Positions 1 to 3,062 of a stretch of 32,938 nucleotides of DNA are shown in pieces. Position 1 is the stretch's first letter, and the number at the start of each line of letters is the position of its first letter. Below the pieces are notes generated by a model. That model worked only from the letters and a program-made list of their open reading frames with translations, searched no databases and was not told the origin of the DNA. This DNA is from an uncultured SAR86 cluster bacterium (GTDB taxonomy: Bacteria > Pseudomonadota > Gammaproteobacteria > Magnimaribacterales > D2472): contig CABYPB010000003.1 of assembly GCA_902520725.1 (NCBI GenBank), positions 73,911 to 106,848 on the forward strand, given 5' to 3'. A program made the translations under genes and the position numbers.

Positions 1-392
1 AAAGGTCAATGGAATTCTCCGATGTTATTTTACTACCTCATCTTGGAGCAAGTACAAAAGAAGCAGAAATAAATTGCGCAGTTATGGCTGCAGAACAAGC
101 ATATAAATTTTTAAAAAATGGTGAAATAGTAAATTCTGTTAATTTCCCAAAAATAAAACTTGGGAGAACAACCAAATATAGACTCGTGATAATTCACAAA
201 GATGAACCGGGCGTGATAGGAAATATTACAGGAGAAATTGCTTCACATAGATTAAATATTCCTGACATGATCAACAAAAGTAGAAATGAAATCGCAATAA
301 CTGTAATAGATCTAGATGATGAGCCTGCTAAGGTAATTATTGATAATTTAAAAGAAATAGTAAATGTTTTAAGTGTTAGGCTATGTAAATAA
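1..392 (+). CDS. serA: D-3-phosphoglycerate dehydrogenase, C-terminal part (5' end outside window)
   Basis: SerA oxidises 3-phosphoglycerate with NAD+, the first step of serine synthesis in the cytoplasm. The frame is open to the left edge, so this is only the last 130 or so residues; the ATG at 9 is internal. The segment LLPHLGASTKEAE holds the catalytic His region of the hydroxyacid dehydrogenase fold. A linker with VNFPKI follows, then a C-terminal ACT domain from about residue 58 of the visible part. In the serine-binding loop (IHKDEPGV, RLNIPDM) the His and second Asn of E. coli SerA are kept, but the first Asn is Asp, so serine feedback may be altered. The arrangement is the short E. 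coli type with one ACT domain. Identification is very safe; the truncation is purely a window effect. Confidence 0.95.
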   Translation, partial: RSMEFSDVILLPHLGASTKEAEINCAVMAAEQAYKFLKNGEIVNSVNFPKIKLGRTTKYRLVIIHKDEPGVIGNITGEIASHRLNIPDMINKSRNEIAITVIDLDDEPAKVIIDNLKEIVNVLSVRLCK

Positions 393-428
393 ACCTAATT
401 ATTTATAAACAATTGTCTAATAGCGAAC

Positions 429-448
429 TTTATTTAAATTTATTTAAA
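429..448. repeat. 10-bp AT-rich tandem repeat (two copies)
   Basis: TTTATTTAAA occurs twice head to tail without spacing or mismatch. It lies in the AT-rich segment left of the DnaA boxes and could belong to a DNA-unwinding element. Chance repeats are common in such AT-rich DNA, so the role is inferred. Confidence 0.6.
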
Positions 449-494
449 AAAACACTTGTCAACAGAAAAAAATAGTGTTATTGAGGGGCCTTAT

Positions 495-577
495 ATTTGT
501 ATATAATTTGTATATATTTTACTTGCTATTTAATCTAAATTACTGATTTAAGGTTATATTTTGGATATTTGTATAAT
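495..577. repeat. 11-bp AT-rich repeat: tandem pair plus a third near copy
   Basis: ATTTGTATATA is repeated exactly at 495-505 and 506-516, and a third version, ATTTGTATAAT, lies at 567-577. The third copy forms the left arm of a perfect 7-bp inverted repeat (569-587). Iterated AT-rich 10-13-mers next to DnaA boxes are typical of origin unwinding elements. Confidence 0.6.
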
Positions 578-635
578 TTTTATACAACTTCTTTAAAAGC
601 CTTATTTAATGCATATTTATGTGGTATAAATAAAG

Positions 636-670
636 TTATCCATAACTTTATCCACAGATTCTGTGGATAA
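636..670. promoter_or_regulatory. Cluster of three DnaA boxes, two forming a perfect palindrome
   Basis: TTATCCATA lies at 636-644, the consensus box TTATCCACA at 648-656, and its exact inverse TGTGGATAA at 662-670. The last two are halves of a 23-bp palindrome: 11-bp arms (TTATCCACAGA and its complement) around one base. It ends 14 bases before the ung start codon, so bound DnaA would also cover the ung promoter or leader. The sites are seen directly; the function as an origin or as a DnaA operator is inferred. Confidence 0.7.
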
Positions 671-684
671 GATTTATGTAAAAA

Positions 685-1362
685 ATGAATAATTTAAATA
701 ATAATATTTCAATGCCTAATGATTGGCTTTTAGCGTTAAAGATATATTCTAATCTTGATAATGTTAATGCACCTATCTCATACATAAAAAAAGAAATAGA
801 AGATGGAAAGGAGATATCTCCCAAAATTGATAATATATTTAACGCATTTAAATACTGCTCTTTTTCTTCTGCAAAAGTTGTAATATTTGGTCAAGATCCA
901 TACTTTCAAAGAGGTCTTGCTAACGGATTAGCATTTTCAGTTAATAAAAATCAAAGAGTTCCTGCATCACTTAGAAATATTTATAAAGAGATTGAAAATG
1001 ATATTGGTTACGTATCAAATAAAGATGGTTGTCTTGAAAATTGGGCAAAGCAGGGAGTGCTTTTATTGAATAGCTCTCTCTCAGTTGAAGTGCTCAAGCC
1101 TGAATCACATGCAAACATTGGATGGGACAAATTCATAATAGATATTATTAAAACTCTTAACAAAAAAAATAAAATTGTTTTTATTTTATGGGGTAATCAC
1201 GCAAAACAATATTTAAAATATATAGACAATGATAACAATTTGATTTTATCTGCAGCTCATCCTTCACCATTTTCTGCATATCGGGGTTTTTTTGGATCTA
1301 AGCATTTTTCTAGATGTAATAGTTATTTAAAGAAAAACAATTTAAAAGAAATTAAATGGTAG
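685..1362 (+). CDS. ung: Uracil-DNA glycosylase, family 1
   Basis: Ung removes uracil from DNA, starting base-excision repair of deaminated cytosine and misincorporated dUMP. The 225-residue length fits family 1 enzymes. The water-activating motif GQDPYF (usually GQDPYH) lies near residue 70, followed by GLANGLAFSV. The second motif HPSPFSAYRGFFGSKHFS near residue 190 supplies the catalytic His and the DNA-intercalation loop. Phe for the last His of the first motif is the one visible oddity; the catalytic Asp is kept. The ATG follows a DnaA-box palindrome by 14 bases and no strong Shine-Dalgarno is visible. The gene ends 2 bases from the convergent ygfZ. Confidence 0.95.
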   Translation: MNNLNNNISMPNDWLLALKIYSNLDNVNAPISYIKKEIEDGKEISPKIDNIFNAFKYCSFSSAKVVIFGQDPYFQRGLANGLAFSVNKNQRVPASLRNIYKEIENDIGYVSNKDGCLENWAKQGVLLLNSSLSVEVLKPESHANIGWDKFIIDIIKTLNKKNKIVFILWGNHAKQYLKYIDNDNNLILSAAHPSPFSAYRGFFGSKHFSRCNSYLKKNNLKEIKW

Positions 1363-1364
1363 AT

Positions 1365-2156
1365 TTATATTATGGTTATTATTTTAGGATCGTTCCTAAT
1401 GTGATCTAATTCAGCTGTTTTAATGATGGCATTAAATACTTTTATATTATCTAAGTTCACTATTTCCCCTGTAATTTTTATATCATTACTAACCGTATAT
1501 TCTTGTTGAGCCACAATAGAACAAAACTTCCTTCTATCTACTCCTAAATATTTCATTCTTGCAACAATTTCCTGTCCTCTATAGCACCCTTTATCAAAAG
1601 AGACTCGTAAATTGTCATAATTAATTTCTACTGGCCTATATTTGAATGTATCTTCAACATGTAGAAATAAGATACCAAGGATTTTGTTAGCCGCTTGCCA
1701 GTTTTCATAAGTAATAGAATCACTATGCTCATAATCGGATTCTTTTATTGAAATCGACACTTCAAAGTCATCATTACTGCAATAAGCATTATCTATGGAC
1801 TTTGAAGAGCTGACATGTCCAACGACATTACTATTAATTTTTTTAAAACCCACTCTATGAAGCATAGCAAATGGTGTTAATTCTTTTATTAAAACATCTT
1901 GGAGATCATTATTAATAACAAAACAGTATCCATCTTTTGATTTATTAATAAAAAAATCTGAAACAACCTGACCTTTGTGATTACAAATTGAAGATAGCTG
2001 AAAGCCTCCATCTTCAATTTTTGTATGATCTGAAGTAACCTGGCCTTGAAGGAATTCATCTACTTTATTGATATCACCTATTAACATAACAACCTTAAGC
2101 TCTTCAATTAACAAAGATCCATGTTCGATAAAATTATTATGTGTATCTTTTTTCAA
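1365..2156 (-). CDS. ygfZ: Folate-binding protein YgfZ, iron-sulfur cluster maintenance
   Basis: YgfZ is a tetrahydrofolate-binding, GcvT-like protein that helps repair or assemble some Fe-S enzymes such as MiaB. The signature KGCYRGQE, with its conserved Cys, sits near residue 189 of 263 and is diagnostic. The N-terminal part has the expected pattern ending in a DFFINK-like strand (VVSDFFINK). At 263 residues it is shorter than the E. coli protein (326). It is divergent from sdhE with 34 bases between start codons, the same pairing as in E. coli, so a shared AT-rich promoter region is likely. Confidence 0.92.
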   Translation of the reverse strand: MKKDTHNNFIEHGSLLIEELKVVMLIGDINKVDEFLQGQVTSDHTKIEDGGFQLSSICNHKGQVVSDFFINKSKDGYCFVINNDLQDVLIKELTPFAMLHRVGFKKINSNVVGHVSSSKSIDNAYCSNDDFEVSISIKESDYEHSDSITYENWQAANKILGILFLHVEDTFKYRPVEINYDNLRVSFDKGCYRGQEIVARMKYLGVDRRKFCSIVAQQEYTVSNDIKITGEIVNLDNIKVFNAIIKTAELDHIRNDPKIITII

Positions 2157-2190
2157 GTAAAATCGGTTTAATAAAATTATATTTTAACCA

Positions 2191-2448
2191 ATGAACAAAG
2201 AAATAAACAGAATTCAGTGGATGTGCAGAAGAGGCATGAGAGAGATTGATTTACTTCTGAGAGAGTTTTCCCAAACCAAGCTCGACCATTTAGATCAAGA
2301 AGAACTAGTTATATTTGAACAAATATTAAGTTATGACGATCAAAAGCTCTACGATTTTATTTTTAAGAAAACAGACCTTAACAATAATGTACACGAAAAT
2401 TTTATTAATAAGTATTTAAAAACATTCACTAAACAAGGAAACTTTTAG
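2191..2448 (+). CDS. sdhE: Succinate dehydrogenase flavinylation factor SdhE
   Basis: SdhE (YgfY, DUF339) promotes covalent attachment of FAD to the flavoprotein subunits of succinate dehydrogenase and fumarate reductase. The 85-residue protein contains the family signature near residues 13-20, CRRGMREID, whose RGxRE core contacts the flavoprotein. The remainder is the helical fold with FEQILSYDDQKLYDFI. The start ATG follows an AT-rich stretch without a clear Shine-Dalgarno. The divergent ygfZ neighbour supports the call. The sdh genes are not in this window. Confidence 0.93.
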   Translation: MNKEINRIQWMCRRGMREIDLLLREFSQTKLDHLDQEELVIFEQILSYDDQKLYDFIFKKTDLNNNVHENFINKYLKTFTKQGNF

Positions 2449-2486
2449 CTATTTTTTTTGTCAGAAAGCATAGGAAGCATAATTAT

Positions 2487-3062
2487 ATGAAAACAAATTC
2501 AAATGATAATGATTCCGTTTTAATTGAACGAGTTAAAAATGGTGATAAAGGAGCATTTAATTTTTTAGTGAATAAATATTATCCAAGGGTTTACGCTTCT
2601 TTATTTTCTTATACTAAGTCAAAAGAAGATTCAGAAGATTTAGCACAACAAACTTTTTTGAAGGTTTGGCAGCAAATAGAATCTTTTCGAGGTGACAGCG
2701 CCTTTTTTACTTGGATCTATAGAATTGCAATTAATTTAGCTAAAAATCATTTTGTTAGTTCTGCATCCAAAAAGCAAAAAGTTAATACATCAATCGAGCA
2801 CGCAGAGATTGAAATTAGTTCCTACGAAAATATTGAACAGATATTAATGCATGATCAATCAATGATACAAATTAAAGAATTCATTAATAATATGCCTGAA
2901 TCTTTAAAAACTGCTTTTACGTTAAGAGAGTCAGAAGGTAAAAGTTATGAAGAGATAAGCTTGATAACTGATACACCAATAGGAACAGTAAGATCAAGAA
3001 TTTTTAGGGCAAGAGAATCTATTATTGATTATATGCAAAAGGAAATAATTGAAAATGAATGA
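2487..3062 (+). CDS. rpoE: RNA polymerase sigma-E factor (AlgU/RpoE type ECF sigma)
   Basis: This extracytoplasmic-function sigma factor directs the envelope-stress response. The 191-residue protein has sigma region 2 at about residues 20-95, with DSEDLAQQTFLKVWQQI and FFTWIYRIAINLAKNH, and region 4 at about 130-180, with the helix-turn-helix LRESEGKSYEEISLI and GTVRSRIFRARE. An AGGAAG ribosome-binding site at 2472 supports the start. The stop overlaps the downstream anti-sigma gene by 8 bases, which implies coupled translation and matches the rpoE-rseA / algU-mucA layout. No sigma-E-type promoter was recognised in the 38 bases upstream. Confidence 0.94.
   Translation: MKTNSNDNDSVLIERVKNGDKGAFNFLVNKYYPRVYASLFSYTKSKEDSEDLAQQTFLKVWQQIESFRGDSAFFTWIYRIAINLAKNHFVSSASKKQKVNTSIEHAEIEISSYENIEQILMHDQSMIQIKEFINNMPESLKTAFTLRESEGKSYEEISLITDTPIGTVRSRIFRARESIIDYMQKEIIENE

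Follow-up and report, generated by a model that had tools for sequence, protein, structure and literature searches.

A probable DnaA-reactivating sequence similar to Escherichia coli DARS2 directly upstream of ung in the SAR86 order

In the published accounts of E. coli, ADP-DnaA that is bound to a pair of head-to-head DnaA boxes (I and II) of the DnaA-reactivating sequences sheds its ADP, box III assists in this, and DARS2 is activated by IHF and Fis. DARS1 and DARS2 have the same spacing of boxes I-III, with box I oriented opposite to boxes II and III (PMC5742627), and the head-to-head pair I/II is described as the hallmark of DARSs and as essential (PMC10380432). DARS-like sequences have already been reported in related proteobacteria (Kasho et al. 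PMC4245941; PMC10380432; PMC5742627). Among the open-licence PubMed Central papers, we found no report of a DnaA-reactivating sequence in SAR86 and none of the DnaA or the replication initiation of this lineage.

We compared these systems with the segment that precedes ung in the window, i.e., the whole analysed stretch of 32,938 nucleotides from an uncultured SAR86 cluster bacterium, whose genome is a 1.0-Mb draft of 30 contigs with an estimated completeness of 78.5%. The features of the segment are collected in Table 1. A sequence-only reading had described three DnaA boxes, two of which were perfect consensus matches arranged as a palindrome 14 bases before the ung ATG, and all of them were recovered; the palindrome spans 648-670 and the ATG lies at 685. 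Read on the minus strand from 670 to 636, the window has TTATCCACA, 5 bp, TGTGGATAA, 3 bp and TATGGATAA. The core of E. coli DARS1 reads TTATCCACT, 5 bp, TGTGGATAA, 3 bp, TGTGTATTA and that of DARS2 reads TTATTCACC, 5 bp, TGTGGATAG, 3 bp, TGTGAAGAA, both having been identified by their layout and by the map positions of 0.81 and 2.97 Mb (PMC5742627). Judged by its letters, the SAR86 locus qualifies as a DARS core, with three boxes, box I in the opposite orientation and the same spacing. Over the 35 bp of the core, it is identical to DARS1 at 24/35 positions and to DARS2 at 26/35, compared with 24/35 between DARS1 and DARS2 themselves. The palindrome was found in none of 300 dinucleotide shuffles of the whole window. 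Single DnaA boxes with at most one mismatch were at the chance level (12 in the window against 11.67 expected), so that the signal lies in the arrangement of the boxes. With DARS2, which is located in the rppH-mutH interval, the SAR86 element shares identical orientations and spacings of the three boxes, an intergenic location and a place away from oriC; it differs in its stronger boxes I and II, in the adjoining ung and in a position on the chromosome arm that differs among the families. With DARS1, located in the bioD-uvrB interval, it shares the core geometry and the placement upstream of a DNA repair gene.

Table 1. Features of the segment upstream of ung, in window coordinates
Feature	Sequence	Position	Strand	Remarks
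10-bp AT tandem repeat, pair	TTTATTTAAA	429..448	.	Not conserved; left out of the element
Possible weak fourth DnaA box	TTGTCAACA	456..464	+	2 mismatches; part of the block ACTTGTCAACAGAA (454-467), which is nearly invariant
11-bp AT tandem repeat, pair	ATTTGTATATA	495..516	.	Not conserved; left out of the element
Predicted IHF site	AATCAGTAATTTA	536..548	-	Fits WATCARNNNNTTR; offset -112 from box II
Predicted Fis site	GTATAATTTTTATAC	571..585	.	Fits GnnYAnnnnnTRnnC; offset -77 from box II
Possible extended -10 element for ung	TGGTATAAA	622..630	+	Inferred by eye from the genus alignment
DARS-type core		636..670	-	Order I-II-III on the minus strand
DnaA box III	TTATCCATA	636..644	+	1 mismatch; 3 bp from box II and oriented like it
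DnaA box II	TTATCCACA	648..656	+	Consensus match, geometry, conservation
DnaA box I	TTATCCACA	662..670	-	Head to head with box II; 5-bp gap same as in E. coli DARS1/DARS2
ung (uracil-DNA glycosylase)		685..1362	+	ORF and homologs; directly downstream of the core; gene name from the sequence-only reading

The arrangement of the boxes proved to be conserved throughout the SAR86 order. We read 33 upstream regions of ung from its four families (19 from f1, five from f2, five from f3 and four from f4; G012 and G035 are not among them), and the III-3-II-5-I layout was present in all 33. The letters of boxes I and II were invariant in these regions save for one letter in G039 (AGTGGATAA), and box III was more variable, having two mismatches to TTATCCACA in all of the f4 regions that were read (TTTTCCCCA) and in some of those from f2. 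With the window's own genome counted, ung was found in 35 of the 40 order genomes, as was the palindrome with at most one mismatch, which occupied a single locus in all but two genomes (G033 and G039, each with a second copy). These two sets of 35 are not the same, as G030 has a one-mismatch palindrome only and no ung match, and G012 is counted for ung alone; G035 is among the genomes with a palindrome match. The sequence-only reading had named relatives that retain ung but have lost the boxes as a finding that would speak against it; none was seen, the boxes being present in every readable ung upstream region. In the genus alignment (n = 19), 86% of the columns of the core were invariant, as were 60% in the Fis site, 62% in the IHF site and 93% in the block at 453-467 (15 columns), compared with 3% at the 3' end of serA. 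The possible fourth box within this block was found at an offset of -192 in 18 of the 19 genus sequences and of -193 in the remaining one; other DnaA boxes with two mismatches were present at -190 to -211 in 5/5 f2 and 5/5 f3 regions, and none was present near these offsets in the f4 regions that were read. A strict core pattern, which excludes the f4-type cores, matched 71 stretches of public genomes, many of them from the same genomes as the 33 regions; 62 had SAR86 titles, eight had titles that were gammaproteobacterial only and one was titled Flavobacteriales.

Matches to the Fis and IHF consensus sequences were both located on the box III side of the core. The predicted IHF sites fit the consensus WATCARNNNNTTR. 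It is looser than the TAAnnnnTTGATW of PMC4245941, to which the site in the window has one mismatch, while the Fis consensus that was used is the one given in that report. In 29 of the 33 regions, the Fis consensus was present at an offset of -76 to -78 relative to box II (f1 19/19, f3 5/5, f4 4/4, f2 1/5), and 28 of them had the IHF consensus on the minus strand, at offsets of -109 to -112 (f1 19/19, f3 5/5, f4 1/4, f2 3/5, with one more f2 region having it at -121). As a control that preserves relatedness and composition, the letters of the motifs were permuted 400 times; none of the 400 permuted motifs reached 28 or 29 of the 33 regions, the maxima being 19 and 20. Within f1 alone, 4/400 permuted Fis motifs also scored 19/19, so that the weight is borne by the result across the families. 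In f2-f4, the IHF consensus was present in 9/14 regions against a permuted maximum of 4, and the Fis consensus in 10/14 against a permuted maximum of 9, which is a thin margin for Fis. Among the 71 strict-core loci, one of which is short of upstream DNA, the Fis consensus was found in 70 and the IHF consensus in 67. In DARS2, the sites for IHF and Fis are both located on the side of box III, a feature which, as far as consensus matches can tell, the SAR86 element appears to share. However, the order of the predicted sites is core - Fis (-77) - IHF (-112) in SAR86 and core - IHF - Fis in E. coli, where the same approach by consensus finds, besides a Fis-like site with one mismatch at -55, two IHF-like sites that each have one mismatch (-83 and -99) and, farther out, a perfect Fis site (-137); the E. 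coli order and spacing thus do not appear to be kept. The conserved Fis and IHF consensus sites also set the SAR86 element apart from DARS1, which according to PMC5742627 can act in vitro with no further factors.

Based on what was observed, i.e., the sequence and geometry of the locus, its conservation, its partner genes in the order and its place off the skew minimum in relatives, we consider it probable (roughly 80%) that the segment at about 536-670, perhaps beginning as early as 454, is a SAR86 DARS that most resembles E. coli DARS2, the release of ADP being predicted from this resemblance. The best reading is that of a DARS2-like element in which the order of the Fis and IHF sites is swapped and which is fused to the 5' region of ung. 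The sequence-only reading had proposed a replication origin or a DnaA-controlled hub; the hub agrees with the geometry of a DARS core, while the origin does not agree with the skew of the relatives or with the unconserved repeats that are discussed below. In the proposed mechanism, ADP-DnaA would occupy all three boxes of the core, and an AAA+ contact imposed by the head-to-head pair I/II would drive out the ADP; the apo-DnaA would then depart and reload ATP, and the potential for initiation at the true oriC, close to dnaA, would rise. Fis (571-585) and IHF (536-548) would bend the DNA on the box III side and gate the reaction. The same DnaA complex would probably also influence the expression of ung, because the core ends 14 bp before its start codon. 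The binding of the proteins, the release of ADP, its timing, the effect on ung and the action of Fis and IHF from their swapped positions are all proposed by analogy with E. coli. Several observations speak against a DARS. The Fis site lies nearer the core, opposite to DARS2, and the location of the Fis and IHF sites is reported to matter at DARS2 in the E. coli experiments (PMC4245941). Moreover, box III is degenerate in f4 and in parts of f2, and the perfect Fis site at -76 to -78 is missing in four of the five f2 regions. The missing IHF site in 3/4 f4 regions, the looser IHF consensus, the single HU/IHF gene and the undetected DnaA in the window's draft, and the Hda matches below the curated cut-off in all but one genome count against it as well. 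In the order the core always hugs ung, which would also be expected of an ung operator, and its position is not mid-arm everywhere, ung being close to the skew maximum in G029.

The main argument for a function of the core of its own is that the same geometry occurs beside other genes across the class Gammaproteobacteria. A loosened DARS-core pattern (at most one mismatch) was found in 221 of the 369 sampled class genomes, with one match in each of the four order genomes in this sample, and a control pattern that was read backwards had no match among the genome rows listed. The neighbours were scanned at 21 of 30 loci as the closest ORFs with a length of 70 aa or more, a limit below which rpmH falls; of the 40 neighbour proteins that were scanned, 29 had a Pfam family and 11 had none. 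Neither DnaA, MnmG nor Ung was found beside the core at these 21 loci, and the idea that the class cores are oriC in disguise was rejected on the absence of DnaA and MnmG neighbours there. A ksgA-type gene neighbours the core at three of the 21 loci. The replication restart gene priA does so at five (L158, L172, L174, L176 and L180), and together with mutH, uvrB and ung it hints that DARS-type cores may favour DNA repair and restart genes. The core was located beside ung in 4/4 order genomes of the class sample and, outside the order, in 0/24 of the class genomes with a core among the matches listed and a strong match to ung, as judged by eye in genomes that include drafts, which may hide adjacency; the ung neighbourhood of the core looks specific to SAR86. 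With this pattern, candidate sites of DnaA reactivation could be mapped throughout the class.

A second option of the sequence-only reading was that DnaA controls ung alone, and this stays as a rival that may also coexist with a DARS. According to it, the segment would be a DnaA/Fis/IHF-regulated ung promoter only, at which DnaA blocks or times the transcription of ung with no nucleotide exchange. It draws on the close association of the two: the distance from box I to the most upstream in-frame ung ATG was 12-30 bp in 70/71 strict-core loci where it could be placed, ung lies downstream of the core in 71/71 of these loci and a serA match lies upstream in 40/71, so that the element goes with ung rather than with serA, and the pairing is that of the SAR86 order, being absent from the 24 genomes outside of it that were mentioned above. 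Set against this is the class-wide distribution of the core geometry, which at the examined loci is found beside quite different genes and which argues against ung as its general purpose. The -10-like element, for its part, was recognised by eye within the genus only, in 18 of the 19 sequences (it is not in G005), and the consensus scan did not report it at 622..630. We regard regulation of ung as the sole function of the segment as unlikely.

It is very improbable that the palindrome acts as an RNA hairpin or terminator, i.e., as a stem-loop in the transcript before ung. The predicted stem-loop has a z of -3.25, with 2/200 shuffles folding equally well, and one terminator-like match was found at 647-671 against 0.1 expected, but the arms are fixed as the letters of DnaA boxes with no covariation, the departure in G039 (AGTGGATAA) is uncompensated, and the conservation extends to box III and to the Fis and IHF sites farther away. 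No match to a known RNA family was found in Rfam for window positions 1-3000. We give just as little credence to a datA-like site, at which DnaA would be inactivated or titrated with IHF. DnaA boxes and an IHF site are shared by E. coli datA and the SAR86 element, and the minimal datA is described as boxes 2, 3 and 7 plus one IBS (PMC10380432); however, PMC5742627 describes a mainly head-to-tail architecture for datA, with mainly head-to-tail contacts in its complexes, and an opposite effect on DnaA, whereas the SAR86 element has a head-to-head pair of boxes I and II and a conserved match to the Fis consensus.

The location of the replication origin was approached through the GC skew, which was sampled as 20 kb per about 54-80 kb and which places the minima to tens of kilobases; at this resolution, they can be told apart from ung in three single contigs. 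The contigs of these relatives (G025, G027 and G029) begin at dnaA. The sampled skew minimum was at dnaA in G025 and G029, and in G027 it was broad, coinciding with dnaA or preceding it by up to about 200 kb. In G015, which belongs to the genus of the window, the minimum at 330-400 kb was beside dnaA at 407 kb, with ung unplaced on a second contig. In the three single-contig relatives, ung was located at 310 of 1194 kb, 381 of 1070 kb and 964 of 1592 kb, that is, about halfway along the arm in G025 and closer to the maximum of the skew in the other two, G027 and G029. The expectation of the sequence-only reading that the skew minimum would fall at the ung segment was not borne out: the minimum was elsewhere, at or near dnaA, in the three single-contig relatives, with G015 in support, and in these three the ung-side core is a chromosomal site distinct from oriC. 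Moreover, 24/24 full-length dnaA loci (26 loci were examined and two truncated ones were set aside) had a perfect DnaA box upstream of the match to the DnaA domain, at a distance of no more than about 440 bp. The two AT tandem repeats that had been taken for origin iterons are present, as is the near third copy of the 11-bp repeat (567-577, a 9/11 match), which overlaps the predicted Fis site. Any perfect 10- or 11-bp tandem pair occurred in 5/2000 shuffles of 393-684; the repeats are non-random in the window yet private to a few genomes, a perfect 10-bp pair being found in 2/19 and an 11-bp pair in 1/19 genus sequences, with 0/42 columns of the two repeats invariant in the genus alignment. 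The segment before ung is almost certainly not oriC: its AT-rich DNA, strong DnaA boxes and IHF-like site recall E. coli oriC, but it has neither conserved repeats nor, judging by the relatives, a skew minimum, and the position of the minimum in four relatives, at dnaA or close to it, the unconserved iterons, the box upstream of every full-length dnaA and the DARS-like box geometry led us to reject this identity.

Strong DnaA matches were found in most of the 40 order genomes, but the 30-contig draft of the window yielded no true DnaA gene. A strong Fis ortholog was detected in 37 of the 40, including the genome of the window, and in the three drafts G003, G004 and G021 the match was weak and lay in longer frames. 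Hda-like proteins occurred in all four families, with the curated cut-off passed in 1/40 genomes. SeqA was detected in 0/40 genomes, with a positive E. coli control, although Fis, Hda-like proteins and DARS-like sites are retained. Genes of the HU/IHF family, with HU and IHF counted together, were found in 38/40 genomes: three in each of the five f3 genomes, two to four in f2, one to three in the f1 drafts (one in that of the window) and one or none in f4 (G026, G029, G032, G035 and G038). In the latter family, the IHF site is gone from its usual offset in 3/4 regions; the loss of the site and the small number of HU/IHF genes are a correlation within one clade. In E. coli, HU is reported as unable to substitute for IHF at DARS2 (PMC5742627). 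The DARS work that is cited here was done in E. coli; if the DARS reading is true, the ATP/ADP switch of DnaA with gating by IHF and Fis would also run in SAR86, a streamlined ocean lineage without detected SeqA. It is conceivable, although we put this forward only tentatively, that throughout SAR86 a single DnaA-Fis-IHF complex is responsible both for recharging DnaA and for timing uracil repair by the cell cycle, with Fis acting alone in f4. The natural swap of the Fis and IHF sites and the apparent loss of IHF in f4 would provide ready-made tests of how DARS2 works.

Further copies of the core or its parts were also seen. A second DARS-like core (L087, G039:C1:44088) is located away from ung in an f2 genome and reads TTATCCACT-N5-TGTGGATAA-N3-TGTGAAGTT, and one-mismatch palindromes at other places were also found in G033 and G030. 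The stretch titled Flavobacteriales (L260, CAJXCU010000001.1) carries a SAR86-type core, a Fis site and ung, and is perhaps a mis-binned SAR86 contig.
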